A stretch of DNA of 32,184 nucleotides from a bacterium. Its GTDB lineage: Bacteria > Patescibacteriota > Microgenomatia > UBA1406 > GWC2-37-13. Positions 2,619 to 26,985 of the stretch are shown one piece after another; the stretch's first letter is position 1, and every line of letters begins with the position of its first letter. Location: NCBI GenBank assembly GCA_021789865.1, contig JAJYIX010000005.1, positions 1 to 32,184 on the forward strand, in the 5' to 3' direction. A model generated the notes under the pieces. The model searched no databases. It worked only from the letters and a program-made list of their open reading frames with translations, and was not told where the DNA came from. The position numbers and the translations under genes are program-made.

Positions 2619-2702
2619 ATGATTTAATTTATCAAATAATTTAAATGATTAAATCATTTGTATATTGATTTGTAGTATTTGTGGATTTGCTTATTTAATC
2701 AT
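2591..2702. repeat. AT-rich inverted repeat with about 8-nt periodicity between convergent genes
   Basis: A perfect 12-bp inverted repeat, AAATAAGCAAAT (2605-2616) and ATTTGCTTATTT (2685-2696), encloses a second hairpin, AAATGAT-TAA-ATCATTT (2643-2659). The right side reads as successive octamers of the form NNATTTNN. The element joins the stop codons of the two convergent genes and probably acts as a bidirectional terminator. It resembles, more loosely, the two octamer palindromes near 5.87 kb and 16.55 kb. Confidence 0.5.
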
Positions 2703-5211
2703 TTTTTATCTCTTCCTTCATCTCCATTTCCTTTTCGGCTTCGGCTTTTTTCGGTCTTGATATCTCGACCCTTTCGCTTTCGGCTTTAAGACGAGCCGTC
2801 ACTTCAGCTTCTTTATCCTGAAGTTCTTTGACCTGTTTAGCCGCTTCGACTTTAGCTTTGAGATAAGTCACCAACTGCTCTCCGGTTAAGTTGTTGACCA
2901 AGAATATCGGCAATATAAATCCAACCTCGTCCAGCGCCTCTTCCTTAAGTGACTTGTCGTCCGATAAAAGCTTATTCAAAGTATTGGTAATCAGCACTAT
3001 GTCTTGATCGACCCATTGAGGACGGGTCTTTATATTGTCGCTCAACGGAATTTCTCCCTTTTCATATTGATCTCTCCACATCTTCTTGACTTGTTCATAT
3101 TCGTCAATAGACACCTTCGGCGAGACTTCGACGGCTTGATCAATGTTCTTGTGCGGCTCGGCGATAATCGGCGCCTGAGCCGTTACAACTTCTTTAACTT
3201 TCGCGACGTCGATATTCTGATTTTTAGCGACTTCTTCTATGAGCTTGTTATCGGCGGAAACGGCCTTGGAAAACTCTTTGATGACTTTGGCTACCGCTTC
3301 TTTTTCGACGTGCGCACCGGAGCTTATTTTCGGAATCATGTCGGGAACCGGCGTATTGACGTTCTCCCCTAATTTATTTAAAACGGCGGTTACTTTTTCT
3401 TTCGGTACGGCGGTCGTTGCGGCAATGTCCGACGCAATTTTGATATTAGCCGCCCCGTAACTTATGACCGATGAGGAGATACTGGCGGCTTTTTCCTGGG
3501 GCAACTTGACTCGGACCGAAATCACCTGAGTAATCGGAATCGCCTTTGGCAACGATGAAATGATCGTTTCTCTTTGCGCCACCTGTTGCGGCCTGGAATA
3601 GAGAATACTGTTCATTATCTGTCTTGCCACCGGATCGGATTTGGACGCTCTTGTCGAAAGTTCGCTTCTGATATTCATGTATCTCAATCTTTCGGCGGTC
3701 GTATCGGCGACCGACGGATTTTTCAAGTAATTGATGTTTTTTGTGACGTTTTGGCTGACGTTTTTATTGGTCTCAAGGGACGCGATGTCGGTTAAATTAC
3801 CCGCTTTGATATTCAAAGACTTGGCGATCTCTTCCGTATTCGCCTTTTTAATTTCTTCCACCGTTTCTATTCTCCGATAAGTATCGGCGGTCGCCTGATT
3901 TTTTATCTCGGTGGCTGAACTGAAAGAAGACGTTCCTGATGGCGTTGCCGGAGAGGGGGATGGAGGTGTTGGACCGCGCAAATTGTTTAAATTCGACAAC
4001 AGCATGTTTTTTATGGCGTTTATTCCGTCACAACAGTAATCCCTGAAAGTCCGAAGAAGGAACCAGGGAAATATTGTTACCGCCCACAACATGATTAAGG
4101 TGATTATGTACTCGACATACGTATCAACATAGTTGCCATTGTTTATCGCCGACAATTGTTGCGCCGGCCCTCCGTACAAAATATTTATCGCGGTTGGATA
4201 AATATAGCCCTGAACGGTGCCGGCCCGGGAAAAATCAAAAATGAAAGGAATCCCGGCTTTCCAAATCGCCGCCAGCGCTCCAAGAAAAAGAGCCAATAAT
4301 GGTCCGTAAAAAACCCATTGAAAAAATGTTCCGATCCAAACCCAACCAACATTTTTAGATATGTGAAAATATTCAAGAATGGCTAAAAATGGCGCGACGA
4401 AGAGTAAAAACCATAAAATAATTACCCGCAAAATCAACGCCCCTCCCATTAGATAATAGCTGATATTGGTTAATTTAAGGATGAACATTTCCGTTTGAGC
4501 CGCCTCTTGAACGGTGACGTTAAGATCCCGACATCCCTGAAAGGTAATGTAATTTGACTCTTGGCTAGCGCCGGAAAAATATATATTAAAAAGGTCGCGA
4601 CCTCCGAGATTTTCGATAAAAAATTTCATCAGTATGCCTGAAAGCTGGACTATTGTGACGACGATTGTCGCCGAAAAAGATATGAATAAAAGCCCAAGGA
4701 GCACTTTGGTTATCGATGGCCAGACTTTCACGTCGGACGCAAAGTTGGTCCGCTGGCCAATAATAATGGCCAGACCGAAAAGAGCAGCTGAAAGAATAGT
4801 AAAAAAATAAGCAATGTTTCTCGTCGTTCCCCAAATTTGATATAGGACCGGGTGATTGTCTATGGAAGTATGAGTCATCACCCAGTAAATAAATTGCCTC
4901 GCCCGGTCATTGGCTTTTCCTTGAGCGGTCACGGTCGTGTCCTGAATCCAAAAATGTTTTTTGGTCGGATTACTCATGAAGTCCTGAAAGTCGGTAGCAC
5001 AAGTTTGACCATCTTTCAGTTGTGAATACACCTGATTAAGTTCTTCCGGACAACCACAATAATTGGCGTTTGGATCAATTGCCGTCTTCATCCCATCACC
5101 CAAATCAACGGAAATTGTCTGAGGCGGCGTTACCGTCTGTGCCATAATCGGAAAGCGGGCAACAAAAAGGTACGCCAACAAGAAAAAAATTGTCAGAAGC
5201 CATCTTTTCAT
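2695..5211 (-). CDS. VirB6/TrbL-like T4SS inner-membrane channel protein with long C-terminal extension
   Basis: An 838-residue protein. It has an N-terminal signal segment (about 1-24, ending PIMAQ), then an extracytoplasmic region with cysteines (CGCPEEL). Five membrane helices follow at about 133-152, 169-192, 252-281, 292-316 and 364-386, after which comes a Ser/Pro-rich linker (PTPPSPSPATPSG) and a roughly 400-residue charged, largely helical tail ending in KEMEMKEEIKND. This layout matches the VirB6-like proteins that accompany PrgI and VirB4 in Patescibacteria, where the apparatus probably exports pili, protein or DNA. The upstream cohesin-like gene overlaps it as ATGA, so the two are coupled. 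The tail is not recognised as a known domain; it may recruit cytoplasmic partners. Identity as VirB6-like is inferred from topology and from PrgI/VirB4 elsewhere in the window. Confidence 0.65.
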   Translation of the reverse strand: MKRWLLTIFFLLAYLFVARFPIMAQTVTPPQTISVDLGDGMKTAIDPNANYCGCPEELNQVYSQLKDGQTCATDFQDFMSNPTKKHFWIQDTTVTAQGKANDRARQFIYWVMTHTSIDNHPVLYQIWGTTRNIAYFFTILSAALFGLAIIIGQRTNFASDVKVWPSITKVLLGLLFISFSATIVVTIVQLSGILMKFFIENLGGRDLFNIYFSGASQESNYITFQGCRDLNVTVQEAAQTEMFILKLTNISYYLMGGALILRVIILWFLLFVAPFLAILEYFHISKNVGWVWIGTFFQWVFYGPLLALFLGALAAIWKAGIPFIFDFSRAGTVQGYIYPTAINILYGGPAQQLSAINNGNYVDTYVEYIITLIMLWAVTIFPWFLLRTFRDYCCDGINAIKNMLLSNLNNLRGPTPPSPSPATPSGTSSFSSATEIKNQATADTYRRIETVEEIKKANTEEIAKSLNIKAGNLTDIASLETNKNVSQNVTKNINYLKNPSVADTTAERLRYMNIRSELSTRASKSDPVARQIMNSILYSRPQQVAQRETIISSLPKAIPITQVISVRVKLPQEKAASISSSVISYGAANIKIASDIAATTAVPKEKVTAVLNKLGENVNTPVPDMIPKISSGAHVEKEAVAKVIKEFSKAVSADNKLIEEVAKNQNIDVAKVKEVVTAQAPIIAEPHKNIDQAVEVSPKVSIDEYEQVKKMWRDQYEKGEIPLSDNIKTRPQWVDQDIVLITNTLNKLLSDDKSLKEEALDEVGFILPIFLVNNLTGEQLVTYLKAKVEAAKQVKELQDKEAEVTARLKAESERVEISRPKKAEAEKEMEMKEEIKND

Positions 5212-5771
5212 ACGTTTTTCAAAATAAAAAAACCGAGGGCAGCTAAAGAAAAAAATCCAAAACCGAGCAAGGCGCCTTTTGTCGTTGATTCAGTTTGTCC
5301 GGTCGTCGGAAGGCTGGTCGGCTGAGGAGGTGTCGTCGGTTGATTTCCCGGAGCCGGTGTTGGCGTTGGAGTATCGGGATTATATAAAGCACAAAGAGTC
5401 GTCGAACCGGGAGAAGTGGCTATGATTTTAAAAGTTACGACGGCAAAACTACCGCTACCACTATATCCACTATCGGACGAGCCTGTTAAGACCAGCTTTC
5501 CACCGCCAAGGTCATTGGCGCTTACGGTCGTAAAAGTGTTGCCGGCTGAAGCCGAAACGTATTGAACGTATTGGGTATCGTAAGTCATTCCAACCGAGGT
5601 TGAAGTCATCGATTGTCCTTCAGTGTTGACGTTTATCGTAAACTGGACATTTTGACCGCTTTGCAAAGTTCCGGAAGGAGCAATCAGGTCAAAAGTTATT
5701 GCATAGCTCGGGACGGCGGCAAAAACAAAAAAAACAAAAAGGGCCAAAAATATTTTTAGGAAGTTTTTCAT
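5208..5771 (-). CDS. Secreted cohesin-like domain protein with LPXTG sorting signal
   Basis: A 187-residue surface protein. The signal peptide is residues 1-24 (ending PSYA). A beta-rich domain at about 25-130 resembles the cohesin/bacterial Ig-like fold (FDLIAPSGTLQSGQNVQFTI; VGMTYDTQYVQYVSA; FAVVTFKIIAT). A Pro/Thr linker (about 131-153) leads to LPTTG (154-158), a hydrophobic helix (about 167-184) and a short tail KNV, which together form a sortase-type cell-wall sorting signal. It would be displayed on the cell surface, anchored by a sortase encoded elsewhere or simply by the C-terminal helix. It is the first gene of the pair with the VirB6-like gene. The promoter TTGTCA-17-TAATAT lies 9 nt before the ATG. 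Confidence 0.7.
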   Translation of the reverse strand: MKNFLKIFLALFVFFVFAAVPSYAITFDLIAPSGTLQSGQNVQFTINVNTEGQSMTSTSVGMTYDTQYVQYVSASAGNTFTTVSANDLGGGKLVLTGSSDSGYSGSGSFAVVTFKIIATSPGSTTLCALYNPDTPTPTPAPGNQPTTPPQPTSLPTTGQTESTTKGALLGFGFFSLAALGFFILKNV

Positions 5772-5780
5772 ATATAAAAC

Positions 5781-5809
5781 ATATTAGCGGAATTTAAAGA
5801 AATTGACAA
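5781..5809 (-). promoter_or_regulatory. Promoter of the cohesin-like/VirB6-like operon
   Basis: On the minus strand TTGTCA (5804-5809) and TAATAT (5781-5786) are separated by exactly 17 nt, and the -10 ends 9 nt before the ATG at 5771. No Shine-Dalgarno is present, consistent with a leaderless or near-leaderless message. Confidence 0.5.
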
Positions 5810-5827
5810 TATACATATATCAAAGAA

Positions 5828-5917
5828 GTTTAAAAGTTTGAAAATTCAAAAGTCAAAAAGGTCTAAAATGTTTTTTCTTTCAAACCTTGAAACCTTTAAA
5901 CTTTTTAACTTACTAAT
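5828..5917. repeat. Octamer-periodic inverted repeat (copy A)
   Basis: The left arm is a run of 8-nt units of the form GTTTNAAN (GTTTAAAA, GTTTGAAA, then ATTCAAAA and GTCAAAAA). The right arm is the complementary series TTTCAAAC, CTTGAAAC, CTTTAAAC, TTTTTAAC. The whole can fold into a long AT-rich hairpin just downstream of the SpoIID gene stop and upstream of the cohesin-like gene promoter. The same unit and design recur near 16.55 kb. Confidence 0.7.
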
Positions 5918-7625
5918 GTCTCTCTACATTATAAAGCGGTCCGACGATTTGGATGTTGGCAGGGGCTCTTTGATCAAAATAGGTCTTGAAATCGTCGCCG
6001 GAAAATGTCTGGGTCCCAGCATCGCCTGTTATTGTCACCGACGTTGTCTTCCCCGATCCGAAATCGGCGCTTATCGCCACCGAACTCACCGAGTTGAAAT
6101 AGTTGCCGCCGCGATTTTTCAATTCCTGTTTTACTCTGTCGCTACTCCATGTATCTGTCCCCGCCGGATTGGAGGCATCGGTTTGATAAACATGGGCAAT
6201 AGTCGATTGATCCTTGTGGACGAGCATGATGACATTGGCGATATCGGCCACCTCATCTTCCTTGAGCCAAGCTGTCCCTCCATACTGTGATCTCGCCCCC
6301 CAATCGCAATAAAACCAAGGCGAATCTTTATCATAGGCATTATTTCTGACGTCGCTGAAACTGTTGTACGAACTGCTTCCATCTTGGGCATTTTTTGTCC
6401 ATGGCCTGGCCGATATGCTGTTACTAGAGGAATAAACATAACCTCCCGCCGTTGATGAGTAGTAGGCGGAAATTGGCGATCCTCCCGAAGTCAAGACAAT
6501 TCCTTTAGTCGCATCGACCGCCTGTTGCCATCTGTCACTATTCTCCTCCTGCTTAAAAACTTGACAGCTTTGGCTAGGACAAATCGTATTGGCGCCATTT
6601 CCCGTATAGGCTAGGGCATAAGAGCGAGCGGCGATCGCCTGGGCTTTTAAAGCCTCCATTCCCCAGTCGTCGCTCGTGGGCATTTCGTATATATGTTTCA
6701 AATAGTCTTCTATGTTTAACGTTTGATCTATCGACTGGCCATATTCATTGGTTCCGGCAACATGAATGTTTATTCCGTCGTTGTAGCCCGTCGTATAGTC
6801 AGCGTTGTAATAAAACTGAAGGATCTGTTGGGCGCTTTGGCCGCCAGCCGCCCTGCCTTTTGCCCCATACTGGTTCAATCCGACCCGATGGGGAACGCCG
6901 AAAGTAAAAAATCCGAACCCTGGCGAAAATCCAGGATCGCGGCCATTAGTCAGATCAGAAGAACATCCGCTTGCCGACGTATAGGCCGATTGAGGCAGAT
7001 TCAAGGCCGCTAAACGTTGAGCGATCAGGGCCTGCTGTTGAGCTACTAAAGCCGATATTTGACTACTCAGAGAACCTATTTTACTGGCCAAAGCCTGGGA
7101 TTGCTGGTCAACCTGAACTTTTAAGGCGGCCAGGCTTGCTTTTTGTTGGGTCAAATTGGCTTTTATTTCTTCGAGATTTTTTATATATAAAACGATTTTT
7201 ATGATAGTGTCCTTATCTTGATTTACCAATGAGTGTTGGTAAAAAAATTTACGGAGCGAATCGGCCAAGTTCGGCTCGATAAGGAGATTCAAAAGACTTA
7301 GGGAAGAACTGTTAACGTTCTTATAATACGAATTAACCCTTTCATCGAGCAGTTGCTTTTGGACGGCCAAAGCCTCTTCTCCTTTTTGCACTTCGAGTTC
7401 TTTTTCGGCAATCTGGCTTTCGAGTTGGGAAATTTGGTTTTTTATACTGTCCAGTTTGGCGACCGCGGCATCATAATCACCTTGAGTAAGGTTCTTTTCT
7501 TGGGTGAGGGCTTGAATTTGGTTTCCTAGACTACTGATTTCGTCATTTATGTCCGCCGACGTAAAAGTCGGGAGACAAAAAAACATAAAAACCATTAGGA
7601 TAACCAGCGATAAAATTTTTTTCAT
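5913..7625 (-). CDS. Secreted coiled-coil protein with SpoIID/LytB murein-processing domain
   Basis: A 570-residue protein. The signal peptide is about 1-24. A long coiled coil at about 25-205, rich in Gln, Ala and Leu, resembles the N-terminal module of PcsB/CwlO-type murein hydrolases. A SpoIID-like domain occupies about 235-480: PHRVGLNQYGAKGRAA is the family's glycine/QYGA motif, EDYLKHIYEMP carries the likely catalytic Glu314, and MEALKAQAIAARSYAL and SSTAGGYV are further hallmarks. SpoIID acts as a lytic transglycosylase on stripped glycan strands. A coiled coil joined to SpoIID suggests a regulated wall-remodelling enzyme, plausibly opening the wall for the neighbouring T4SS-like apparatus. 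It is divergent from the pilin gene over a 62-bp gap. Confidence 0.85.
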   Translation of the reverse strand: MKKILSLVILMVFMFFCLPTFTSADINDEISSLGNQIQALTQEKNLTQGDYDAAVAKLDSIKNQISQLESQIAEKELEVQKGEEALAVQKQLLDERVNSYYKNVNSSSLSLLNLLIEPNLADSLRKFFYQHSLVNQDKDTIIKIVLYIKNLEEIKANLTQQKASLAALKVQVDQQSQALASKIGSLSSQISALVAQQQALIAQRLAALNLPQSAYTSASGCSSDLTNGRDPGFSPGFGFFTFGVPHRVGLNQYGAKGRAAGGQSAQQILQFYYNADYTTGYNDGINIHVAGTNEYGQSIDQTLNIEDYLKHIYEMPTSDDWGMEALKAQAIAARSYALAYTGNGANTICPSQSCQVFKQEENSDRWQQAVDATKGIVLTSGGSPISAYYSSTAGGYVYSSSNSISARPWTKNAQDGSSSYNSFSDVRNNAYDKDSPWFYCDWGARSQYGGTAWLKEDEVADIANVIMLVHKDQSTIAHVYQTDASNPAGTDTWSSDRVKQELKNRGGNYFNSVSSVAISADFGSGKTTSVTITGDAGTQTFSGDDFKTYFDQRAPANIQIVGPLYNVERH

Positions 7626-7653
7626 GTCCGTTAAGATTTTTTACTTTTTCCTT

Positions 7654-7681
7654 TTGATTTTTGACTTAACATCATTATACT
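7654..7681 (+). promoter_or_regulatory. Promoter of the VirB2-like pilin gene
   Basis: TTGATT (7654-7659), a 16-nt spacer and TATACT (7676-7681). The -10 ends only 6 nt before the ATG at 7688, so transcription would start at or next to the A of the start codon. Confidence 0.5.
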
Positions 7682-7687
7682 TTCTTT

Positions 7688-8329
7688 ATGAAACGTGTTT
7701 TCCTTAATTTCTTAATTTGTTTATTTGTAATATTTGTTTATTTTTTCATTTTCTCTCCTGTCGAGGCCCAGACTTATACCCCAACGCCTCCGCCTAACGC
7801 CTTTCAGACGGCCACCCCTTCTTTTGTATCGACGACCGGCGGTCCCCGATATTCGGCCTGCGACCTTTGCGGATACTGTCCTCCAAACCCGCCTCCACAA
7901 AGCTGGGGCGATTGTCAAAAATGTCTTTATCCCGGGATAAGTTCCGATCCGACTACCATGGAGAGTCTTGCGGTCGACCCGACCACCAACTTGCCGATAA
8001 CACCGGTCCCTGGGCGCCAATACACATTTCTTGGCTGTTTGACAACGGGGGGCAACGGTAGTTTCGAACAGGGAGGAGCTGGTGGAGTAGTTCAATCCCT
8101 TTTGAGAATAATTTTTTCCGTCGTCGGAGGAGTTGCTTTCCTTTACCTCATTTACGGATCTTTTGTTATTTTGACGTCTCAAAACGAGCCGGAAAAACTA
8201 AACTATGGAAAACGAATTATTTATGGAGCGATTATAGGACTAATTTTTTCCTTAACGTCGATTCTTATTGTCAATCTAGTCGCAAATCAGATCCTTCAAA
8301 TACCGGGTTTCGGAAGCGCTAGCCCTTAG
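7688..8329 (+). CDS. VirB2/TrbC-like pilin with extracytoplasmic cysteine cluster
   Basis: A 213-residue protein. The signal peptide is about 1-28 (ending SPVEAQ) and a Pro/Thr-rich stretch follows. The cysteine cluster CDLCGYCPP...CQKC lies at about 58-79. Two C-terminal helices, about 138-163 and 177-201, are joined by a short polar loop containing NEPEKLNYGKRIIYG. Signal peptide plus two helices with a small basic loop is the VirB2/TrbC pilin topology, here with a much longer N-terminal region than classical pilins. The CxxCxxC...CxxC pattern could form disulfides or bind metal outside the membrane. It ends tail-to-tail with the next gene, sharing TTAG. Assignment as a pilin is inferred from topology. 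Confidence 0.7.
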   Translation: MKRVFLNFLICLFVIFVYFFIFSPVEAQTYTPTPPPNAFQTATPSFVSTTGGPRYSACDLCGYCPPNPPPQSWGDCQKCLYPGISSDPTTMESLAVDPTTNLPITPVPGRQYTFLGCLTTGGNGSFEQGGAGGVVQSLLRIIFSVVGGVAFLYLIYGSFVILTSQNEPEKLNYGKRIIYGAIIGLIFSLTSILIVNLVANQILQIPGFGSASP

Positions 8330-8797: not shown

Positions 8798-9295
8798 ATG
8801 GAGAACAACCCTCAGGTGCTTTTTGACTGGAAGGCCCCTCTGCGACCTTATAAGAAGCGTTCGGCCATTATAGTTCGCTTCTATGTCGCCGTCGCCCTGC
8901 TTTTGTCCGCCATCATGTTTTTCTTTGGCGACAAGATTCTTTTGATTCCGATATGGTCTTTGGTTTTCCTTTTCTATGTTTTGACGATAACGCCACCACC
9001 CGAAGTGGAAAATAAGATCACCGCTTTCGGAATCGAGGCTGCCGGAGTTACCCTAAGATGGGAGTCGCTCTCACATTTTTATTTCGGAAAAAGGTTCGGT
9101 TTTAATACCTTAACAGTCGTGTCGCGGGCGCCGTATTTTTACCACGCATACATGGTTATTCCGAAAGACGAAGATAAACAAATAGTCTTGACCATTTTAT
9201 CGGCCCACATAATGTACCAGGAAAAACCTCAAAAAACTCTCACCGACAAACTCCTAGACGCTTTGTCCGCAATTATTCCTGATGACGAAGACTAG
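8798..9295 (+). CDS. Small membrane protein with two helices and C-terminal soluble domain
   Basis: A 165-residue protein I do not recognise by name. Two adjacent hydrophobic helices (about 25-43 and 47-65) form a hairpin. They are followed by a soluble region of mixed beta/alpha character (IEAAGVTLRWESLSHFYFGK; LTVVSRAPYFYHAYMVIPK) and an acidic end DDED. A two-helix hairpin with a beta domain is reminiscent of bacterial PH-like membrane proteins, but that is only a guess. Its last 23 bp overlap the end of the convergent HARP gene. Confidence 0.6.
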   Translation: MENNPQVLFDWKAPLRPYKKRSAIIVRFYVAVALLLSAIMFFFGDKILLIPIWSLVFLFYVLTITPPPEVENKITAFGIEAAGVTLRWESLSHFYFGKRFGFNTLTVVSRAPYFYHAYMVIPKDEDKQIVLTILSAHIMYQEKPQKTLTDKLLDALSAIIPDDED

Positions 9296-9917
9296 CGAGA
9301 TCGTCCAGTCTTCTTATAAAAGAAGGGGACGGAAGTTCTTTCGCGCCAAAGGCTCTTCCCCAAGCCAAGACCCCTTCGTCAGTCGTGACAAGAAATCCGC
9401 CCTGTTCTTTGGCGAGAACGATAATGTCAAGGTCGGTCAGACTGTCTAAAAATCCCGTTCTGGTTGCATTACGATAGCGCTCGCGGAACTTCTTTATCGC
9501 TTCACCGATTTTTATTTGAAAGTCTTTTTGTGATAGGTTTTTTTCCTCTCCAAGCATCTTTCTTCCCGAGGCAACTATTTCCTCCTCTCCGATATTTAGA
9601 CCCCTCAAGCTTCTTCCCCTTATGTCGTCAACCATTTTATAAAAAACGGCGGCCGGAAAACTTAATCCATCTACCTCCGGGGATTTTATCGTTATCGAAC
9701 TCAGAAAATTCTTCAAAAAAGCCTGGGTTTTGTTCTCAAAAAAACTCAAGAGCTCGTCTACGGCTCTCGGCGGCATAAAAAATTCTGCTAACCCGGCTTT
9801 CTTAAGCGATAAAATCTTTTCTGTTATGGTGGTGATTATCTTTTCCGTATTGTCGCCGAGGCCCAGATCGGCCCCCATATTAAAGAAAAGGTTCGTGTCC
9901 AAGATGAATTTGTCCAT
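9273..9917 (-). CDS. Protein-only RNase P, HARP family (PIN domain; old name 'RNA ligase partner')
   Basis: A 214-residue PIN-fold protein that matches the HARP family (Aquifex aeolicus Aq_880 type), the smallest known RNase P, which removes 5' leaders from pre-tRNAs without RNA. Family landmarks, judged from memory of Aq_880: MDKFILDTNLFFN at the N-terminus (Asp7), AEFFMPP at 44-50, ITIKSPE at 76-81, KKFRERYRNATRTGFLDS leading to Asp158, TDLD (Asp162, Asp164) and LVTTDEGVLAWG with Asp180. All expected acidic active-site positions are present. A central insertion of about 20 residues relative to Aq_880 falls in the helical region used for oligomerisation. It lies 46 bp downstream of dnaN on the same strand, so it is probably co-transcribed with dnaA-dnaN. 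A generic PIN toxin is less likely given the family-wide match and the lack of an antitoxin gene. Confidence 0.85.
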   Translation of the reverse strand: MDKFILDTNLFFNMGADLGLGDNTEKIITTITEKILSLKKAGLAEFFMPPRAVDELLSFFENKTQAFLKNFLSSITIKSPEVDGLSFPAAVFYKMVDDIRGRSLRGLNIGEEEIVASGRKMLGEEKNLSQKDFQIKIGEAIKKFRERYRNATRTGFLDSLTDLDIIVLAKEQGGFLVTTDEGVLAWGRAFGAKELPSPSFIRRLDDLASLRHQE

Positions 9918-9963: not shown

Positions 9964-11058
9964 CTAATCTTGTATTCTCACCGGCATGATGATGTGCAAA
10001 AAATTATCAACACCAACCTGTTTAAAAACCGCCGGAGCGTCACCCCTCAAAAGCTCTATCTGTATTTTTTCGGTTTCGGCTGCCGACAGAAAATCGGTTA
10101 AAAACTTATAGTTAAAGGCTATTTTCTGACCTTCTCCGTCGATTTTTGCCTCCACTTTAGAGACGTTCACATCTTCGCCTCCTGCCTTCGGCATTACGAC
10201 AATTTCATCGTTTTCGGTCTTTAGAATGATGATGTTTGAAACATCACGAGTGAAGATGGACACAAGCTTGACGGCTCTCAAAAGGTCGCTTTTAGATATG
10301 GTAATAGTCGTCTTTTTTTCCGACGGAATCACTCTCTCAAACGGAGGATAGTCTCCATCTATAAGCCTTGTATAAAGGTCAACCTCTTTCCCATAAAACA
10401 CCAGGACTTTTTCCTCTTTTGAAAAACTAAATAAGAGCTCCTCGTCTTTTATGAGCCTTATTGCCTCATCAAGAAACTGCGATGGCACGATCATCGAGGG
10501 GACGTCTTCGGTCCTTTTAAGACTTAAAAGAGACAGTCTGAATCCATCGGTGGAGACTATCTTCAAGCCGTCCTCTTTGACGACAAAATTTATTCCTGTC
10601 AAGGCTGGTCTGGTCTCATCAGACGAAGCCGAAAAAAGAATAGTGGAGAGATTTTTCTCAAAAAAGCTCGTTTTGATTTTTTGTTTCGGCGAGTTTATTT
10701 TTGGCGGAAAAGGAAATTCCGAGGCGTCTATCAACGGAAAGTCTCCTTTTGTTTTTCCGGAAGATATTATCAGGTCTTTTTCTTTTATCTCTATGTCGAC
10801 GCTCGGCGTGTTGACGAGACTTAGGAACTCGCTGATTTTTTTCGGTTCGACCACAACTTTGACTTTGTCGAGTTTTTCTTTTTTAATCATTGAGTGGTAA
10901 TAGCTGCTCAGGTTGGTCGAATAGAAGTGGAGGCCGTTTTCGTCGGTCAATAGACAAACTCCCTGAAGAACATTTGAGGAAATGACCTTTGACGATGTAA
11001 ACTTTAAAGACGTGTTTATTTTTTCAAGAAAGGTGTCTTTTAAAAGGGTTGTTTTCAT
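9964..11058 (-). CDS. dnaN: DNA polymerase III beta subunit (sliding clamp)
   Basis: A 364-residue clamp of typical length with three repeated clamp folds. Recognisable parts are the N-terminal LQGVCLLTDENGLHFYSTN, the middle LIDASEFPFPP and RPALTGINFVVKEDGLKIVSTDGFRLS, and the C-terminal FNYKFLTDFLSAAETEKIQIEL, ending HIIMPVRIQD (the usual terminus is MPMRL). It forms a ring on DNA that tethers the replicative polymerase. It lies downstream of dnaA on the same strand across a 112-bp spacer that holds DnaA boxes. A TATATT sits 5 nt before the ATG, so a clamp-specific leaderless message is possible in addition to read-through from dnaA. Confidence 0.97.
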   Translation of the reverse strand: MKTTLLKDTFLEKINTSLKFTSSKVISSNVLQGVCLLTDENGLHFYSTNLSSYYHSMIKKEKLDKVKVVVEPKKISEFLSLVNTPSVDIEIKEKDLIISSGKTKGDFPLIDASEFPFPPKINSPKQKIKTSFFEKNLSTILFSASSDETRPALTGINFVVKEDGLKIVSTDGFRLSLLSLKRTEDVPSMIVPSQFLDEAIRLIKDEELLFSFSKEEKVLVFYGKEVDLYTRLIDGDYPPFERVIPSEKKTTITISKSDLLRAVKLVSIFTRDVSNIIILKTENDEIVVMPKAGGEDVNVSKVEAKIDGEGQKIAFNYKFLTDFLSAAETEKIQIELLRGDAPAVFKQVGVDNFLHIIMPVRIQD

Positions 11059-11171
11059 TTTTTAATATAAGAAAAGTAGTAATAGATGGTGTGTATAAGT
11101 GTATAAAAACACGCTTGGATTTTCAAGACAGAAAAAATCGTAATTTTTCTCTGTGGATGGTGGGTGGATAC
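11059..11171. promoter_or_regulatory. oriC: Putative oriC core: tandem DnaA boxes plus DnaA-trio-like tract
   Basis: The dnaA-dnaN spacer holds four same-strand (minus) DnaA boxes: TTATACACA at 11090-11098 (matches TTATNCACA), TTATACACT at 11098-11106, CCATCCACA at 11152-11160 and GTATCCACC at 11163-11171 (the last two each with two mismatches). Immediately next to the first box, on the dnaN side, is TAGTAATAG (11077-11085). This is the repeated 5'-TA(G/A)-3' pattern of the DnaA-trio that guides strand opening, followed by an AT-rich run (TTTTTAATATAAGAAAAG). The order boxes, trio, AT-rich DNA matches a Bacillus-type basal unwinding system. No strand-bias or marker-frequency data were available. 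Confidence 0.7.
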
Positions 11172-12505
11172 TATGTTGAAGAATCAAGCGATTGGATTAT
11201 TGTGTCAACCTCTTTTTTAAAATTTTGATCCCTCATCATCAGAGAGGAAATTTTCTGTTCGGCGTGAAGGACGGTCGTATGATCTTTTCGTCTCAGGGCA
11301 GCGGCCGTTTCCATAAGCTTCATCTTCATCTCGCGACGGAGAATATACATCGCCACCTGTCGAGGAACGACGACAGACTCGATTCGAGTCTCTCCTTTTA
11401 GGTGCGATTGTTTAACGTTGTAAAAAGTGCAGACAGTCCGGATGACATCTGAGGGGGTAATTTTTTTCCTTTTTTTTTCTTGGCTGTTGGCAAAAAAAGA
11501 CTCAATCGCTTCGAGATCAATTTTTTCTTTTATTCCCAAAACCTTTGCGTATATTGATAAGAGCACCCCTTCAAGAGCTCTTGAGTCAAGGACTCTTTCG
11601 GCTATAACTTTAGCCGCCTCAATGTCAAGGCCGATGTTTTTCTCCTGGGCCTTAATAAGAAGGATGGCGGTTCGAAGTTCAAAGTCTGGCTCCTGAACGT
11701 CGACAATGAGCCCGCCGGAAAAGCGCGACCTCAGCCTATCTTCGAGGTTTTTTATCGAAGACGGCGGCCGGTCTGACGTTAGGATTATTTGTCCGCCCAA
11801 AGAAACAATTGAATTAAAGGTGTGAAAAAACTCCTCTTGAACAGCTTGTTTTCCGGCAATAAACTGAATGTCGTCAACGACGAGGACTCCTAGGCGACGA
11901 TACTTTCTTCTGAACCGAGGGCCGGCATTTTCTCTTATCGATTCAATCATTTCGTTTGTGAATGTTTCGCCGGGGCTAAACAAAACCTTTTTATTTTGAT
12001 CGTTCTCGAGAATTTTTTTAGCGGTGGCTTGGGCGAGATGGGTTTTTCCGACACCAACCCCACCATATAGGAAAAGAGGGTTGTAGGCATTGCCGGGGTT
12101 GTTGACGACCGCCTGAGCGGCCGCATAGGCGACCTGATTAGTCGACGAAACGGCGAAATTATTAAAACTGTATTTTTTGTTCAAACCCGCCCGCTCAAAA
12201 AGATCGTCGGTCGTCGGTTCAAACGACAAAAGCGGCGACTCGACCCTCTTTTTAGTCGGTGGAGCCATGATAAATTCTACGTGCAGAGATTTTTTAAAAT
12301 ACATCGCAAAAGAAGCTTCAACCTCAAGTTTTCGTTGGGAGAGAAAAATTTTTGCACCCTGGTTTTCACAGGAAAGAACAATCTTTTCGTCGGAAACGTC
12401 GACGGGTTTAACGTGTTTGAGAATGGAGTAAAGGACCGGCATTCGTTGCTGGTTTTTTTCAAGGTCTTCGATATATCCCTTCCAAATGGATGATGGGGAT
12501 GACAT
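11171..12505 (-). CDS. dnaA: Chromosomal replication initiator DnaA
   Basis: A 444-residue AAA+ initiator. Domain I is about 1-75, a short linker (domain II) about 76-105, and the AAA+ core starts at about 110. The Walker A motif is GGVGVGKT (148-155), Walker B is LVVDDIQF (208-215), and TNEMIESIREN is typical of the family. The C-terminal domain IV carries the box-binding signature RRKDHTTVLHAEQKI near residue 408. It opens the origin and controls its own expression by binding DnaA boxes. A DnaA-box palindrome overlaps its promoter region. The family-typical N-terminus supports the ATG at 12505. Downstream genes on the same strand are dnaN and the HARP gene; the Xer-like gene lies 120 bp upstream. 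Confidence 0.98.
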   Translation of the reverse strand: MSSPSSIWKGYIEDLEKNQQRMPVLYSILKHVKPVDVSDEKIVLSCENQGAKIFLSQRKLEVEASFAMYFKKSLHVEFIMAPPTKKRVESPLLSFEPTTDDLFERAGLNKKYSFNNFAVSSTNQVAYAAAQAVVNNPGNAYNPLFLYGGVGVGKTHLAQATAKKILENDQNKKVLFSPGETFTNEMIESIRENAGPRFRRKYRRLGVLVVDDIQFIAGKQAVQEEFFHTFNSIVSLGGQIILTSDRPPSSIKNLEDRLRSRFSGGLIVDVQEPDFELRTAILLIKAQEKNIGLDIEAAKVIAERVLDSRALEGVLLSIYAKVLGIKEKIDLEAIESFFANSQEKKRKKITPSDVIRTVCTFYNVKQSHLKGETRIESVVVPRQVAMYILRREMKMKLMETAAALRRKDHTTVLHAEQKISSLMMRDQNFKKEVDTIIQSLDSST

Positions 12506-14736: not shown

Positions 14737-16497
14737 TTATTCTATAAATCCCTTTTCCTCTTCCGAAGCGACGACCTGGAATCCAACGTGAGAATGTCCG
14801 GCGAAGAAAAGCCCTTCACCAACCCCAGCCGATAAAAGAAAGTGTTTCTCTCCTCCGGTCAAAAAGAAGGTCTTCGATATCGCTTCGACCGCAGCGGTCG
14901 ATTGCTTAAGGATGATCTGCAAGGAGGAATTGGTAATGATGGCCTTCCCTTCGTCTGTCTCCAAGAAATCCTCGACGTCCTGGGTGATTGTTGTCAGACC
15001 GAGGTGGTATTTGCGGGCTCTTTTTGCGAACGAATGAAGGTAGGCCCCCGAATCTTTATGTTTGATGAGATACCAAGCCTCGTCAACGACGAGGATTCTT
15101 TTTTTTGGATCCCGTCGAACTTTATTCCAGATATAATCCAATACGATATACATGGCGACCGGCCGGAGGTTTTCTTCAAGGTCACGGATCCCAAAAACGG
15201 TAAACGGATTTTTTATGTCGAAGTTGGATTTTTGATTAAATATTCCCGAAGCCGATCCTTGAACGAATTTTTCCAATCGATCGGCCAACTCTTTGGCCTC
15301 AGGCGTCTCCATTCCAACAAGGATTTTGTATAAATCTTCAAGGAGCGGCGGTTCAAGTTTGAAAGTCTCGATGTCCTGAGTGATTCCCTTCTCTTTGTAG
15401 GTAAGGACAAGGGCGCGATCCAAAAGGGCGTCTTGCGACGGAGTCAGGTCGCCCATGATGACTCTCATTAAGGAATGGAGATCGAGAATTTTGTTTGAGA
15501 GTTCGTCGGGGGTAACGCCTTCGGTAACGAGATCAAAGGGGTTGATTTTGTATTGCGATGTGGTTGAAAAAATGACAAATTCGCCGCCCATCGAAGCGGC
15601 AAGTTTTTGATACTCGTTTTCTGGATCGATGATGATGACTTCGACGCCCATTGTGAGCAATCTCAAAGTCTCAAGCTTGACATAAAAACTTTTCCCACCG
15701 CCCGACTTACCCAAAATGACCGAGTTGGCATTTTCTAAAGTAAAGCGGTCAAAAATAATAAGGGAACCATCGTGCTCGTTTATCCCATACAGTACCCCTT
15801 CGTTTTTGGTGAGAGAGGCAGTTGCGAAAGGAAAGGTCGTCGCCAAGGAAGTGGTGTCCATGTTGCGCCAGACTGCCAGTCGGTCATAAAAAAGCGGTAA
15901 AGTCGATTTGTACCCTTCTTCCATTTCAAGAGTCGCTTGGCGTCCGACGATAAGAAGTGACGACAAAACCGAATCGATCTCTTTGGTAATTCGATTGAGT
16001 TCTTCAAGAGAATCGGCCGGAATAGTGATATACAGGCCGAATTGAAAAAATCTTTCAGCTCCCTTGGCTAATTCTGCCTGGAGGGCTAAGGCGTCGTCAA
16101 GAGCCACCTGGACGGTTGGATCAACCACCTTGCCGGCTTTAATATCGCTTTCAATCGTCGCTTCCATCTCGGCAATTTTTCTTTTCAAATCATTTAGGAC
16201 ATTTTTCGATTCGGTTGGATAAACATACATCGATATGTAAAGCGGATGATCGAATGTTATTAATGAATAAAGCCAGTTGGCTGAAACGTAGCGCGGGTAA
16301 CCAACGACATAAAGCGTGCGATAATAATGATCGTCGATTTTAAGATGATTAAAATCAACTTCGATAAAGGAGGGAGCGATAATGTCTTTGATCGACACAC
16401 TGCCTTGGGCCAAAACATTGGCCATGTGGTTACTGGTTTGCGTTGAACCGGTTGATTTTGTCGATCGGCCTGTTAGTAGTGAAAAAAAATCAATCAT
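14737..16497 (-). CDS. VirB4/TraC-type T4SS ATPase, core domain
   Basis: A 586-residue hexameric-type ATPase that powers type IV secretion at the inner membrane. The N-terminal portion (about 1-250) carries VirB4-family features (SFIEVDFNHLKIDDHYYRTL; YVVGYPRYVSANWLYSLI). The ATPase domain has Walker A GKSGGGKS (263-270), Walker B RILVVDEAW (467-475) and the family's TTITQDVEDFL segment (about 502-512). No membrane helix is evident. The front part of a full-length VirB4 is probably supplied by the separate 219-residue gene upstream, so this is a split VirB4. It is the last gene of the prgI operon; the octamer palindrome copy B lies in the 114-bp gap before it. Confidence 0.9.
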   Translation of the reverse strand: MIDFFSLLTGRSTKSTGSTQTSNHMANVLAQGSVSIKDIIAPSFIEVDFNHLKIDDHYYRTLYVVGYPRYVSANWLYSLITFDHPLYISMYVYPTESKNVLNDLKRKIAEMEATIESDIKAGKVVDPTVQVALDDALALQAELAKGAERFFQFGLYITIPADSLEELNRITKEIDSVLSSLLIVGRQATLEMEEGYKSTLPLFYDRLAVWRNMDTTSLATTFPFATASLTKNEGVLYGINEHDGSLIIFDRFTLENANSVILGKSGGGKSFYVKLETLRLLTMGVEVIIIDPENEYQKLAASMGGEFVIFSTTSQYKINPFDLVTEGVTPDELSNKILDLHSLMRVIMGDLTPSQDALLDRALVLTYKEKGITQDIETFKLEPPLLEDLYKILVGMETPEAKELADRLEKFVQGSASGIFNQKSNFDIKNPFTVFGIRDLEENLRPVAMYIVLDYIWNKVRRDPKKRILVVDEAWYLIKHKDSGAYLHSFAKRARKYHLGLTTITQDVEDFLETDEGKAIITNSSLQIILKQSTAAVEAISKTFFLTGGEKHFLLSAGVGEGLFFAGHSHVGFQVVASEEEKGFIE

Positions 16498-16509
16498 ATT
16501 AATATCAAA

Positions 16510-16593
16510 GTTTAAAGGTTTTAAGGTTTGAATGTTTAAAAGTTAAAAATCTTTTTATATCCTTTAAACTTTCAAACTTTTGAACTTTCTAAC
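16510..16593. repeat. Octamer-periodic inverted repeat (copy B)
   Basis: Five consecutive 8-nt units on the left (GTTTAAAG, GTTTTAAG, GTTTGAAT, GTTTAAAA, GTTAAAAA) face four complementary ones on the right (CTTTAAAC, TTTCAAAC, TTTTGAAC, TTTCTAAC), separated by 12 nt (TCTTTTTATATC). It lies between the two halves of the split VirB4 within one operon, so on the transcript it would fold into a long hairpin. The consensus unit GTTTNAAN is shared with the copy near 5.87 kb. Confidence 0.75.
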
Positions 16594-16611
16594 TTGATAA
16601 TCTTTATGGAC

Positions 16612-17271
16612 TTATGTTTGAGTCATCACAACATCGGTATAGCTTTCGACCGGCGCCAATCTTCGACCCGTCGCCGAAGGGTTATAAAGATTGTAATAAA
16701 TTTCCGTCAGTTCTTGAGAAAAGAGCGGCGTCGCCTTGAGGCCGATTTTGGAAAGGAGTCTCAAAAGATTATCCCGTTTTGGATAAAGCGCAGTTTTAGC
16801 CCGACTGATGACGTAATCCTTGTTAAGCGATTTTGGATTGGCCCCCGATACGCCAAGTTCTAATGGCGAAAAAGGAACTACGAAAAAAAATCTTTTTTCC
16901 AAAACGGTATTTTTTTTGACAACATTTTTAATGAAGTCTCGATAGGAATTCAACCGGCTCTTCATAAGATCAACGGTCGTTTTATTGACTTTTTCTTGAA
17001 GGTAGTCAAGATAGGCGGAAATATCCATTTTTTTTGAAATGATCAAGACTTGGACCGGAAACGACAAAGAGTTTAAAAGGCCGGCATAAGCATAGATCAT
17101 AGAATTCTGCTCCTCGCTCGACAAAAGCCAAAAGTTGACGGCCGAGACCTCAATGACGGTTGCTGCCGAATAATCCTTCAGCAAAACGATGTCGTCTTTT
17201 ATCTCGTCGATCTCAGTAAAAGATTGTGTTGAAGCCTTAATCGGTGATGTTGGTCTATTTGGCTGGGTCAT
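16612..17271 (-). CDS. VirB4/TraC N-terminal-type protein (detached domain)
   Basis: A 219-residue soluble protein. DEIKDDIVLLKDYSAATVIE, then a YAGLLNSLSFPVQVLIISKK segment and a basic helical region with FFFVVPFSP resemble the N-terminal alpha/beta domain of TraC/VirB4 proteins found fused to the ATPase in other bacteria. It sits between the PrgI gene (4-bp ATGA overlap; an AAGGAG Shine-Dalgarno lies inside the PrgI stop region) and the ATPase core gene. The likely role is to bridge the ATPase to the PrgI/VirB6 membrane parts. The family call is inferred from fold-like motifs plus gene order. Confidence 0.65.
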   Translation of the reverse strand: MTQPNRPTSPIKASTQSFTEIDEIKDDIVLLKDYSAATVIEVSAVNFWLLSSEEQNSMIYAYAGLLNSLSFPVQVLIISKKMDISAYLDYLQEKVNKTTVDLMKSRLNSYRDFIKNVVKKNTVLEKRFFFVVPFSPLELGVSGANPKSLNKDYVISRAKTALYPKRDNLLRLLSKIGLKATPLFSQELTEIYYNLYNPSATGRRLAPVESYTDVVMTQT

Positions 17272-18074
17272 ATCATCTCCTTCGAGACAACTTCTATCGG
17301 GTGAGGGTTGACATCCTTGATCTCAACTTTCATTGTATCAAAAAAGTGTTTGCCTTGAGGGTCTTTGATTTCAAAAAAATAAGTGCCGGCCGGAAGCGGA
17401 CTAAAAGTGGCAAATACACCGTTGACGTTGGTTTTTAAAATTCTTTTTGGCTCACCTTTTTCATCCTGTCTTACGTAGATAAGGATTCCGTAGAGGGGAA
17501 TGTTTTTATAGTTTTTAACCAATCCGCTGAAAAAGTGTTCTTTTGGTTTGACGGACGGCGAGGGCATCGAAGTTGCGGCTTTTTTTGCTTCAACAGAGGG
17601 TCTGCTGGTAGGATTCGGTGTCGGAATTTGGAAAAGATTATTTATGGACTGTTTCTTGCTTGGCGTTCCCGTTTGCGTTACGTTTTTTCCCAAATAATTG
17701 TTCAGTTTTTTTTGTGAGTCAATGTGGTTGTTGACAAGCGCCGGATTGGCTTGTACGGTCATATTGACCAAATAACTGGGGGCATCGTTATGTTTGTGGT
17801 ATTGGTATTGGGTGGGGGAAGTCAGTCTTTTAAGCAAATTTTTTAACCAGACGTCCAACGGGCGATCGTTAATCGGTACAAAAGCGAAAGCGGCTCCAAT
17901 CGCTCCGACGACAATTCCAAAAAAAACATTGAGAATTGGGACCGGGAATATCGCGTAAACGATGAATCCAAGACCGACAAAGACCAATAGGTACAAGAAC
18001 TGCTTTATCGTCAGGAATCCAACCAATTTGAATTCGAAGGTTGTAATCTGTCTCGGTATCGGATGTTGCTCCAT
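17268..18074 (-). CDS. PrgI-family T4SS membrane protein with C-terminal carboxypeptidase-regulatory-like domain
   Basis: A 268-residue protein. The N-terminus EQHPIPRQITTFEFKLVGFL followed by two close helices (about 20-43 and 46-67) and the FVPINDRPLDVWLKN motif is the PrgI (VirB3-like) signature. A Pro/Ser/Thr linker (about 135-180) leads to a beta domain at about 190-265 (KNIPLYGILIYVRQDEKGEP; TNVNGVFATFSPLPAGTYFF; EIKDPQGKHF) that looks like a carboxypeptidase-regulatory/transthyretin-like fold, a common protein-binding module. It is the first gene of the PrgI / VirB4-N / VirB4 operon and starts 5 bp after the stop of the phosphoribosyltransferase gene, so that gene may belong to the same transcript. 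Confidence 0.85.
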   Translation of the reverse strand: MEQHPIPRQITTFEFKLVGFLTIKQFLYLLVFVGLGFIVYAIFPVPILNVFFGIVVGAIGAAFAFVPINDRPLDVWLKNLLKRLTSPTQYQYHKHNDAPSYLVNMTVQANPALVNNHIDSQKKLNNYLGKNVTQTGTPSKKQSINNLFQIPTPNPTSRPSVEAKKAATSMPSPSVKPKEHFFSGLVKNYKNIPLYGILIYVRQDEKGEPKRILKTNVNGVFATFSPLPAGTYFFEIKDPQGKHFFDTMKVEIKDVNPHPIEVVSKEMI

Positions 18075-18817: not shown

Positions 18818-18890
18818 GGGCCGGTAGCGTAATGGCCATCGCGCTTCCATGGCATGGAAGAGACTAGGGGTTCAAGTCCCCTCCGGTCCA
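18818..18890 (+). tRNA. tRNA-Ala, anticodon GGC
   Basis: A full cloverleaf can be drawn by hand. The acceptor stem GGGCCGG pairs with CCGGTCC and contains the G3:U70 wobble that identifies alanine tRNAs. The D arm is GCG...CGC. The anticodon stem is CTTCC/GGAAG around loop ATGGCAT (anticodon GGC at 18851-18853, reading GCC). The variable loop is 5 nt, the T arm is AGGGG-TTCAAGT-CCCCT, and the discriminator is A. The 3' CCA is not encoded (the next bases are CAGG). The leu leader promoter starts 6 nt further on. Confidence 0.95.
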
Positions 18891-18896
18891 CAGGAC

Positions 18897-19061: not shown

Positions 19062-20219
19062 ATGGGAAAAAAAATATTTATATTCGATACGACCTTGAGG
19101 GACGGGGAACAAGTGCCTGGTTGCCAGTTGAATACGGTGGAAAAAATTTATATTGCTCGCGAATTGGAATCGCTTGGCGTCGACATAATTGAAGCCGGAT
19201 TTCCGATTTCTTCACCCGGAGATTTTAGGTCGGTCGAGGAGATTTCTAAGGCGGTTACCGGTCCGACAGTATGCGCTTTAACTCGGGCGAAAAAAGAAGA
19301 TATAGACTGTGCCGTGACCGCTCTCAAATTTGCCAAAAAGAAAAGGATTCATACCGGAATCGGCGTCTCCGACATACACATAAAATACAAATTCAAATCG
19401 ACCCGGGAAAACATATTACGACAGGCTATCAAAGCGGTAAAGTATGCAAAAAAATTTATTGAAGACGTTGAATTTTATGCTGAAGATGCAGGACGGGCCG
19501 ATGATGAATTCCTAGCGGAACTGGTTGGAAAAGTTATTGCCGCCGGGGCCACTGTCGTCAACATTCCCGACACGACCGGATATTGCTTGCCCGACGACTT
19601 CGGACGGAAAATCAAATATTTATTTGAGAACGTTGACAATATTGACCGGTCGATAATTTCTGTCCACTGCCATAACGATTTGGGATTGGCAACGGCCAAT
19701 ACGGTATCGGGAATAATGGAAGGCGCCAGACAAGTTGAGGCGACGATAAACGGAATTGGCGAAAGAGCCGGGAATACCTCCCTCGAGGAGGTTGTTATGA
19801 TTTTGAAAACCCACAAAAAACTCGGAATGACAACCGGTGTTGATACTAAAAAAATATTTTCCATAAGTCAAAAAGTATCAAACCTTATGAATATGCCGGT
19901 ACAAAAGAATAAAGCGATCGTGGGCGCCAATGCCTTTGCGCATTCTTCGGGAATTCATCAGGACGGAATAATCAAAAATAGGTCCAATTATGAAATCATC
20001 GATCCTCAAGACGTCGGCGTCGATCAATCAAAAATTCTTCTGACGGCCAGGTCGGGGAGAGCCGCGTTAAAGTACCGGTTAAGTAAAATCGGATACCGAA
20101 TCGGGGAGGACAATATCGACTTTATATATCAAGAATTTTTAAAAGTGGCCGACAATAAAAAACTGATTGACGACCGAGAATTATCAATATTAATGAAAAA
20201 ACTAAGCCATGAAAATTAA
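19062..20219 (+). CDS. leuA: 2-isopropylmalate synthase lacking the C-terminal regulatory domain
   Basis: A 385-residue enzyme that condenses 2-oxoisovalerate with acetyl-CoA in the first leucine-specific step. The TIM-barrel domain shows [15 protein letters not shown] (Arg13, Asp14), VNIPDTTGY, the metal-binding [10 protein letters not shown] (His202, His204) and NGIGERAGN. The accessory subdomain includes [14 protein letters not shown]. It stops there: the roughly 120-residue C-terminal leucine-binding domain of usual LeuA (about 510 residues) is missing, so feedback inhibition should be weak or absent. Leucine control may instead come from the attenuator just upstream. Homocitrate synthase or citramalate synthase are alternatives, but the leu operon context favours LeuA. 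No Shine-Dalgarno precedes the ATG. It overlaps the next gene by 11 bp. Confidence 0.93.
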
Positions 20220-22074
20220 AGGGAAAGTAACTTCGATTTTTCCTAAAGATATAAACACCGACGATATAATACCGGCCTGGACTCTCCAGGAATCAAGCGA
20301 TAAGTCTTTTTTTGGAAAGTATGCTTTTGCGAATTACGACAGTGATTTTATTAAACGGTCAAACGGGAGCGAAAGTAATATCGTCGTTGCCGGCGACAAT
20401 TTCGGTTGCGGATCTTCACGCGAACAAGCGGTATATGCCCTGGAAAAAAATAACGTCAAAGCGATAATCTCGAGTTCCTTTCCGGACATCTTCTATCGTA
20501 ACTGCATAAATAATGGTTTGCCGGCCCTAATCGTAGATTCGACAGAAGGTTTTCATTTAAATAACGACGTAGTTATCGATTTGGAAAATGCGATTATCAG
20601 ACACGGCAAAAAATCTTACAAAGTAAAAAATCCTCGGGAAGACCTGAAAAGTTTTTCCATCGGAGGGAAACTTGGAAAAATCAGGTCGAATTTGAGCATC
20701 CTATTGGGCCAAACCCAACCTCGTAGGTGTGATCTGGGCCGGTATGGCAAGATAAAGCCCATGACTATTGCCGAAAAAATCATCTCCGATCATGTCGGCC
20801 GACCGAGTTTTGCCGGCGACAAGCTCGACCTTCCGATCGACACCCTATTTTTTAACGAAGTGATTGGACCTCCGGCGATAAAAGATTTTAAGGAAAAATT
20901 TATCGATATTTACAAAAAACATAAAAAAAAGATAAAAGTCTTCGATCCTGAAAAAATATTTTTTATTCCTGATCACACCGTCCCATCTTCATCGGTTGCG
21001 GTATCGGAAGGAATCGATCTTATGGAGAAATTTTCAAAAACTCAAAGAATAAAATGTTACAAGGAAGGGGACGGAATAGAGCACGTCGTCTTGATCGAAG
21101 ACGGCTACATAACGCCCGGAAAAATAGTCATCGGGACGGACTCTCATACGTGCACAAATGGTGCTCTAAACGCGTTGGCTTTCGGAGTCGGGACGACCGA
21201 CGCCGCCTATGCGATGGCGACGGGATATTTTTACGATTTTGAAATTCCGAAAACAATAAGATTCAATTTGGAAGGATCATTTGGGAAAGGCGTGTACGGT
21301 AAGGATCTCATCCTCTTTTTGATCGGAAAACTTGGGGTCTCCGGAGCGTCAAAAAGGATAGTTGAATTTGGGGGGCCGGCCTTGAAAAACATTTCTCTGG
21401 AACAGCGGATCACGATCGCCAATATGGCGGTCGAAATGGGAGCCCGGACGGCGGTATTCGAACCGGAATCTTTGTCCGAAAAATATCCGGCCGACAAAGT
21501 GTATTATCCGGACAATGAAGCGTCATATGAAAAAATCATCAATGTTGACCTTTCGGCAATTGAGCCGTGCATCGCCTTTCCCCATAAACCGGGTAACGTC
21601 ACCTTCATATCAAAGATATCTTCATATATGAAAAAATCCCAAAAAAGCCACAACCCTGATTTTGCCAAAGTTGATTCTTTAAAAATTACCGATGCCTTTT
21701 TGGGGGCTTGCACCAATGGGCGGTATGACGATTTTTTCGAGGCGGCAAGAATCATTAAGGGAAAAAAAGTCGCTTTAGGAGTCACTTTTACGATAATCCC
21801 CGCATCCAGAACGGTCTATAACCGTTTAATGAGCGAAGGAATTTTGCAGATTTTCGCAGAAGCGGGAGCCAATATCGAATCGTCAAATTGCGGCCCTTGT
21901 TTTGGCAAACATATGGGTGTCATAGGGCGCAATGCCCAGATGATTTCATCATCCAATAGAAATTACATCGGACGGATGGGGTCGAGGGACGCCAAGATTT
22001 TTTTGGCCTCGCCGATTACCGTTACCGCCGCCGCCATCGAAGGTAAAATAGTTGACCCGAGGAAATATTTATGA
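20209..22074 (+). CDS. leuDC: Fused 3-isopropylmalate dehydratase (LeuD-LeuC fusion)
   Basis: A 621-residue single-chain isopropylmalate isomerase (2- to 3-isopropylmalate). Residues 1 to about 165 are the small-subunit swivel domain LeuD ([47 protein letters not shown]). From about 180 the large subunit LeuC follows ([58 protein letters not shown]). The three cluster-binding cysteines fall in DSHTC, GACTNG and NCGPC and should hold a [4Fe-4S] cluster. Usually LeuC and LeuD are separate proteins. Here the swivel domain comes first, the order seen in aconitase B rather than aconitase A. No stop or frameshift interrupts the joint ([20 protein letters not shown]). It overlaps leuA by 11 bp and leuB by 4 bp. 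Confidence 0.95.
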
Positions 22075-23126: not shown

Positions 23127-23131
23127 TCGCC

Positions 23132-23569: not shown

Positions 23570-23585
23570 TCCTTATCGATTTCGT

Positions 23586-23614
23586 TTGCAAAATTTAAAA
23601 ATATCTGTTAACAT
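23586..23614 (+). promoter_or_regulatory. Promoter of the ilv operon leader
   Basis: TTGCAA (23586-23591), a 17-nt spacer and TAACAT (23609-23614) preceded by TGT (extended -10). The layout is the same as at the leu leader. It ends 13 nt before the leader ATG. Confidence 0.45.
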
Positions 23615-23627
23615 TTGTTCTCGTCTT

Positions 23628-23693
23628 ATGAAAACACGAAAAAATATTATCGTCAGCATTATTCTCGTCCCTTCCCAGGGCGGATGTTGCTGA
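23628..23693 (+). CDS. ilv operon leader peptide (attenuator control peptide)
   Basis: A 21-codon ORF not in the ORF track, ending in TGA. It begins MKTRKN, then IIVSIILV (seven of eight residues are Ile, Val or Leu), and ends PSQGGCC. This is the composition expected of a peptide that senses charged tRNA-Ile, -Val and -Leu, as in ilvL or ilvB leaders. Its 3' codons CAG GGC GGA form the antiterminator strand GGGCGG (23678-23683). It sits between an extended -10 promoter and a strong terminator in front of the aminotransferase gene. Translation is inferred only. Confidence 0.78.
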   Translation: MKTRKNIIVSIILVPSQGGCC

Positions 23694-23740: not shown

Positions 23741-23752
23741 GGCTTTAAACTT

Positions 23753-26613: not shown

Positions 26614-26661
26614 CGTCGCGATTGCGGGTTGGCGGTTAGAAATTGGCTGATAATAAAACTT

Positions 26662-26904: not shown

Positions 26905-26907
26905 AAA

Positions 26908-26973: not shown

Positions 26974-26985
26974 GGAGGAGTTTGT

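Follow-up and report, generated by a model that had tools for sequence, protein, structure and literature searches.

A HARP-type RNA-free RNase P appears to have replaced the RNase P ribozyme across the Candidatus Roizmanbacteria order

The HARP locus

The window, meaning the whole stretch of DNA that was analysed, is 32,184 nt in length (contig JAJYIX010000005.1 of assembly GCA_021789865.1) and comes from a member of Candidatus Roizmanbacteria (Microgenomates, CPR), in keeping with the CPR origin assumed in an earlier note on this DNA. It contains a gene for an RNA-free RNase P (HARP), and the features referred to in the text are listed below.

2695-5211: large multi-pass protein
7688-8329: T4SS pilin (PF18895)
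8798..9295, plus strand: orf165, convergent with the HARP gene with a 23-nt 3' overlap; predicted membrane protein with two N-terminal hydrophobic stretches and no known domain
9273..9917, minus strand: HARP gene, 214 amino acids, ATG start
9964..11058, minus strand: dnaN, 46 nt upstream of the HARP gene on the same strand
11171..12505, minus strand: dnaA
14737-16497: VirB4-like ATPase
18818..18891, plus strand: tRNA-Ala(GGC), the sole tRNA gene in the window and an expected HARP substrate
19062-31001, plus strand: leuA-like gene, leuD-leuC fused ORF, leuB, aminotransferase, ilvB, ilvN, ilvC, ilvA and ilvD (from translations)

The extent given earlier for the HARP gene, 9273-9917, is correct, and the gene is read from the minus strand; the plus strand across this interval is riddled with stops. 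The dnaA-dnaN context, on which the earlier note had based part of its argument, proved to be incidental, as dnaN (19 loci) or a divergent dnaA (7 loci) is the immediate neighbour of HARP in only 26 of 65 loci, with nrdR in that position in 15 and the others located elsewhere. The constant neighbour is orf165: it converges on HARP in 65 of 66 loci (the remaining contig ends too soon) and overlaps the HARP 3' end in 63 of 65. Since orf165 is found class-wide, in 130 of the 144 genomes surveyed below and in RNP genomes as well, it is read as the site at which HARP landed and not as its partner. A role as a HARP-specific partner was rejected, given that orf165 occurs across the class without HARP and shows no linkage to rnpA where positions were compared. 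The same convergent HARP-orf165 pair is present in family f3, which suggests one HARP acquisition before the order diversified.

Type IV secretion or pilus-like genes are found around dnaA (2695-8329 and 14737-18074), and such genes lie near HARP in many relatives. The run of genes at 19062-31001, judged from its translations to be for branched-chain amino-acid biosynthesis, is unusual for a CPR genome, as these normally lack amino-acid synthesis. Within it, a single ORF (20209-22074, plus strand) reads by eye as a LeuD-like small isopropylmalate-isomerase domain placed before a LeuC-like large one.

Family assignment and predicted structure

In profile searches, the predicted protein matched TIGR03875 over its entire length (E 3.4e-41, 141 bits against a cut-off of 95.3), a family named 'RNA ligase partner protein' at NCBI, as well as Pfam PIN_5, PF08745 (E 1.1e-39, 136.5 bits against a cut-off of 27); no VapC-type PIN family was matched in the Pfam search. 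When the sequence was searched against the PDB, every significant match was an 'RNA-free ribonuclease P'. An AlphaFold monomer model (mean pLDDT 93), for which 27 aligned Microgenomates sequences served as input, shows a PIN metallonuclease that is interrupted by a spike-helix hairpin (helices 89-121 and 130-153) and ends in a C-terminal helix (197-213). Comparison of this model with the PDB using Foldseek gave 34 significant matches, all of which were HARPs, with TM by target reaching 0.91, and VapC and other PIN proteins were listed only from E 0.02 upward. The TIGR03875, PF08745, PDB sequence and fold matches all agree with the family named in the earlier note and run counter to the VapC placement that it had offered as a possible refutation. 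Judged from its sequence, the window gene is a true HARP, a member of a known enzyme family.

Alignment of the window HARP with Aquifex aeolicus Aq880 pairs D7, D158, D162 and D180 with Aq880 D7, D138, D142 and D160, four aspartates reported to be essential (PMC8405995). D7, D158 and D162 are kept in all 75 aligned HARPs and D180 in 74 of them. Asp164, which had been listed earlier together with these four as an active-site residue, is present but falls outside the essential set; its column, equal to Aq880 D144, is occupied by D or E, and by G in family f3. R145 and R149, conserved in 75 and 74 of the 75 aligned HARPs, respectively, are equivalent to Aq880 R125 and R129, whose change to alanine abolishes or nearly abolishes activity (PMC8266387), and R100, R102 and R153 align with Aq880 R94, R96 and R133, a proposed elbow-binding patch. 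The C-terminal helix, without which Aq880 is disabled (PMC8266387), is present in the AlphaFold model.

The central insertion that had been put at about 20 residues does exist, but amounts to 12-14 extra residues, which are located in the loop of the spike-helix hairpin. E112 and R145 are 33 residues apart in the window HARP, compared with 18-21 in five solved HARPs. This spacing is 31-34 in all 67 order loci measured and 17 and 23 in two f15 sequences, and the spike loop appears shorter by eye in two f3 sequences.

Distribution of HARP, rnpA and rnpB

A total of 144 genomes of the class, mostly incomplete MAGs, were surveyed whole for HARP (PF08745), rnpA (PF00825) and rnpB (RF00010); 83 of these belong to the Ca. 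Roizmanbacteria order and 61 were sampled from the rest of the class. HARP was found in 76 of the 83 order genomes (47 of 48 among good assemblies), and in these 83 genomes the covariance model detected no rnpB (E<=0.001) and the rnpA search gave no credible match. The sole weak rnpA match in the order, in genome G081, was rejected as spurious, scoring 19.8 bits, which is below the cut-off, and containing five in-frame stops. Among the 61 other genomes, 57 carry rnpA and/or rnpB without HARP, and rnpB was found in 53. Overall, 78 genomes have HARP without RNP, 57 have RNP without HARP, nine have neither and none has both, an exclusion with a Fisher p of 6e-31, although this statistic ignores shared ancestry. 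It therefore appears that the Ca. Roizmanbacteria order as a whole has lost the RNase P ribozyme and has HARP in its place, which extends to the order a replacement that had been proposed from the window alone.

A looser rnpB search of retested order and f15 genomes gave a top score of 8.6 bits, and 52 of the 53 rnpB matches elsewhere in the class score 45-130 bits. In the single-contig genome G044, rnpB was found by neither the covariance model, an nhmmer profile made from sister rnpB, nor the CR-I/CR-V motif pair, all three of which succeeded in G098, a single-contig RNP relative. Both rnpA and rnpB are absent from G044 and equally from G026, also a single contig. As the earlier note had reported, the window itself contains no rnpB detectable by RNA search and no rnpA among the ORFs searched, and neither gene was found in the window's own genome (64 contigs, 92% complete). 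Seven order genomes lack HARP, and all seven also lack orf165, which is present in every HARP-bearing order genome. Because HARP and orf165 overlap, one missing contig would account for both absences, which points to assembly gaps in these seven genomes. When 380 genomes were drawn evenly from across the phylum, the two order members among them were the only ones above the HARP cut-off. HARP loci with named records are from Candidatus Roizmanbacteria, Woesebacteria and other Microgenomates/Patescibacteria MAGs.

The rnpA slot

In bacteria, rnpA normally lies between rpmH and yidD or yidC, and in RNP relatives of the order the operon reads rpmH-rnpA-(yidD)-yidC-jag. In the HARP order, yidC follows rpmH within approximately 123 nt, with no rnpA between them, in all 30 genomes sampled, and the window's own genome has a gap of approximately 125 nt that likewise lacks rnpA. 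The slot is also empty in three of the seven HARP-less order genomes (G007, G042 and G075), and it was unreadable in two HARP-bearing f3 genomes in which rpmH was not found beside yidC. As rnpA is gone while the rest of the operon has stayed, incomplete assembly does not explain its absence. The earlier note had argued from HARP occupying the dnaA neighbourhood in which rnpA lies in most bacteria, but these positions place the old rnpA site away from HARP, in the rpmH-yidC operon, from which rnpA is missing. An in-place swap of rnpA by HARP at dnaA was accordingly rejected, as HARP has a different location and nothing fills the slot between rpmH and yidC.

Outside the order, genome G091 has rnpB (86.9 bits) and an rpmH-yidD-yidC operon without rnpA; neither an rnpA elsewhere in this genome nor a HARP was found. 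It is possible that G091 represents a half-way state, or that its rnpA is relocated or divergent.

tRNA genes and the need for 5' processing

A strategy of leaderless tRNAs is known from Nanoarchaeum. The single-contig genome G044 has 46 tRNA genes, of which 11 have a pyrimidine as first base and several are arranged in tandem, one pair abutting and another lying 5 nt apart. Given these pyrimidine starts and tandem genes, leaderless tRNAs were rejected as a reason for the loss of the ribozyme, and a strategy of the Nanoarchaeum type is unlikely in G044. Avoidance of an encoded 3'-CCA, as might be expected if HARP disliked CCA, found no support either: CCA is encoded in 7 of 46 tRNA genes in G044, and G098 has it in 11 of 46 (Fisher p 0.43).

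HARP in family f15 and phylogeny

HARP without rnpA or rnpB was also found in a second Microgenomates family, f15, three of the four genomes of this group carrying HARP. In both f15 genomes inspected (G094 and G130), HARP overlaps by one base the start of tsaD, a tRNA-modification gene (t6A synthesis). In a tree of 35 HARP sequences, a 98/92 branch parts the HARPs of the order from those of f15 and the solved HARPs, and f15 forms its own 100/98 group; this tree, which is unrooted, suggests that the f15 HARP may be a second acquisition. A more tentative scenario, to which we would give well under even chances, is that the ribozyme was lost at least twice in Microgenomates, with separate HARP gains beside orf165 in the order and beside tsaD in f15, and that relatives of the G091 type may keep a half-way state.

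Comparison with published HARPs

The closest known systems are Aq880 of A. aeolicus and the Hydrogenobacter HARP, both from the HARP-only Aquificaceae, which have in common with the window HARP the family, the predicted fold, the essential aspartates and the spike arginines. As in the order, RNP RNase P is absent from the Aquificaceae lineage. The window HARP differs in being about 28-30% identical to these two over the structural alignment and in having a spike-helix hairpin 12-14 residues longer, and its host differs in being a CPR bacterium with a genome of about 1 Mb from an order that is affected as a whole. The solved HARPs of Thermococcus celer, Planctomycetes GWF2_40_8 and Halorhodospira halophila likewise share their fold and active site with the window HARP, whereas those of the order fall on a branch of their own and have the longer hairpin.

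According to reviews, HARP-only bacteria are essentially the Aquificaceae, together with a small number of isolated cases that are often thermophilic or halophilic, and elsewhere HARP is an accessory to RNP, paired with an RNA ligase. In the accounts of HARP hosts given in PMC10941002 and PMC6380272, most have RNP RNase P as well. Seshadri and Gopalan (2025, PMC12153264) report that 89% of HARP genomes also encode the RNA ligase Rnl3; the HARPs of these pairs are of the same family as those of the order, but Rnl3 (PF18330) was found in none of the 66 order genomes searched. The hosts in that 2025 survey are mainly heat-, salt- or alkali-loving, with CPR not named (PMC12153264), and a 2024 review gives HARP in five other bacterial phyla and a few unclassified bacteria (PMC10941002). 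The text of a 2019 survey refers to HARP-only "unclassified bacteria" that are not named there, so single Roizmanbacteria genomes may already be in its tables (PMC6380272). Among papers available without subscription, no published account of HARP or of RNase P loss in CPR was found, and a clade-wide replacement of RNase P by HARP in this order looks not to have been described yet.

HARP as the probable sole RNase P of the order

We consider it very probable that the window gene is a HARP serving as the cell's only RNase P, and that it was acquired by the ancestor of the order before rnpA and rnpB were lost. In that ancestor the gene would have landed tail-to-tail against orf165, after which HARP would have taken over tRNA 5' maturation and rnpB and rnpA would have been lost; HARP would now be essential. 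HARPs form oligomers that are at least tetramers and usually dodecamers. By homology with Aq880, HARP dimers would pair through spike-helix four-helix bundles to give tetramers or larger rings, in which one dimer would read the tRNA elbow through the spike-helix arginines R145, R149, R153, R100 and R102 while the neighbouring dimer would cut the 5' leader at the metal-ion PIN active site (D7, D158, D162 and D180). We infer that the window HARP cleaves pre-tRNA, given that its key residues are conserved and that no alternative was found.

The rival that survives best, although it is improbable, is that HARP has another job, for example on other RNAs, as has been proposed for the HARP-ligase pairs, and that tRNAs are matured by a divergent RNase P RNA that has escaped detection. 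Such an RNA would have had to escape a search that recovers rnpB in 53 of 61 other class genomes and in 0 of 83 in the order, in cells from whose operon rnpA has been excised; in addition, HARP and RNP co-occur in 0 of 144 genomes, and none of the 66 order genomes searched has Rnl3, the proposed ligase partner. What lends this rival some weight is that RNase P RNA is variable in structure and hard to annotate (PMC7191817), that four recombinant bacterial HARPs formed oligomers but left pre-tRNA uncut, and that HARP is dispensable in archaea, where knock-outs in two species gave no growth phenotype and HARP carriers also keep RNP RNase P (PMC12153264, PMC10941002).

It is barely conceivable that the absence of rnpA and rnpB is an artefact of incomplete assemblies such as the window's own genome, since the single-contig genomes G044 and G026 lack both genes, 0 of 83 by chance is not credible, and the rnpA slot, read through in the window's genome and in 30 sampled genomes of the order, was empty in each. 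Equally hard to credit is a VapC-type PIN toxin or stray PIN nuclease: HARP is placed within the VapC group of the PIN superfamily in the account of PMC6380272, but the window protein scores well above the PIN_5 and TIGR03875 cut-offs with no VapC family match, has the spike-helix hairpin and a clear gap in fold matches between HARPs and VapC, and is encoded essentially once per genome throughout the order beside a class-wide predicted membrane protein that is not an antitoxin.

RNase P RNA is among the few ribozymes retained nearly everywhere. With HARP as its only RNase P, an entire order of uncultured CPR bacteria with small genomes would be both HARP-only and ligase-free, while sister orders of similar genome size keep the ribozyme, a contrast that helps to disentangle replacement of the ribozyme from both genome size and the ligase. 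Close relatives are available in which leaders, tRNA ends and enzyme kinetics can be compared, and the question of why cells abandon the RNase P ribozyme thereby becomes testable.
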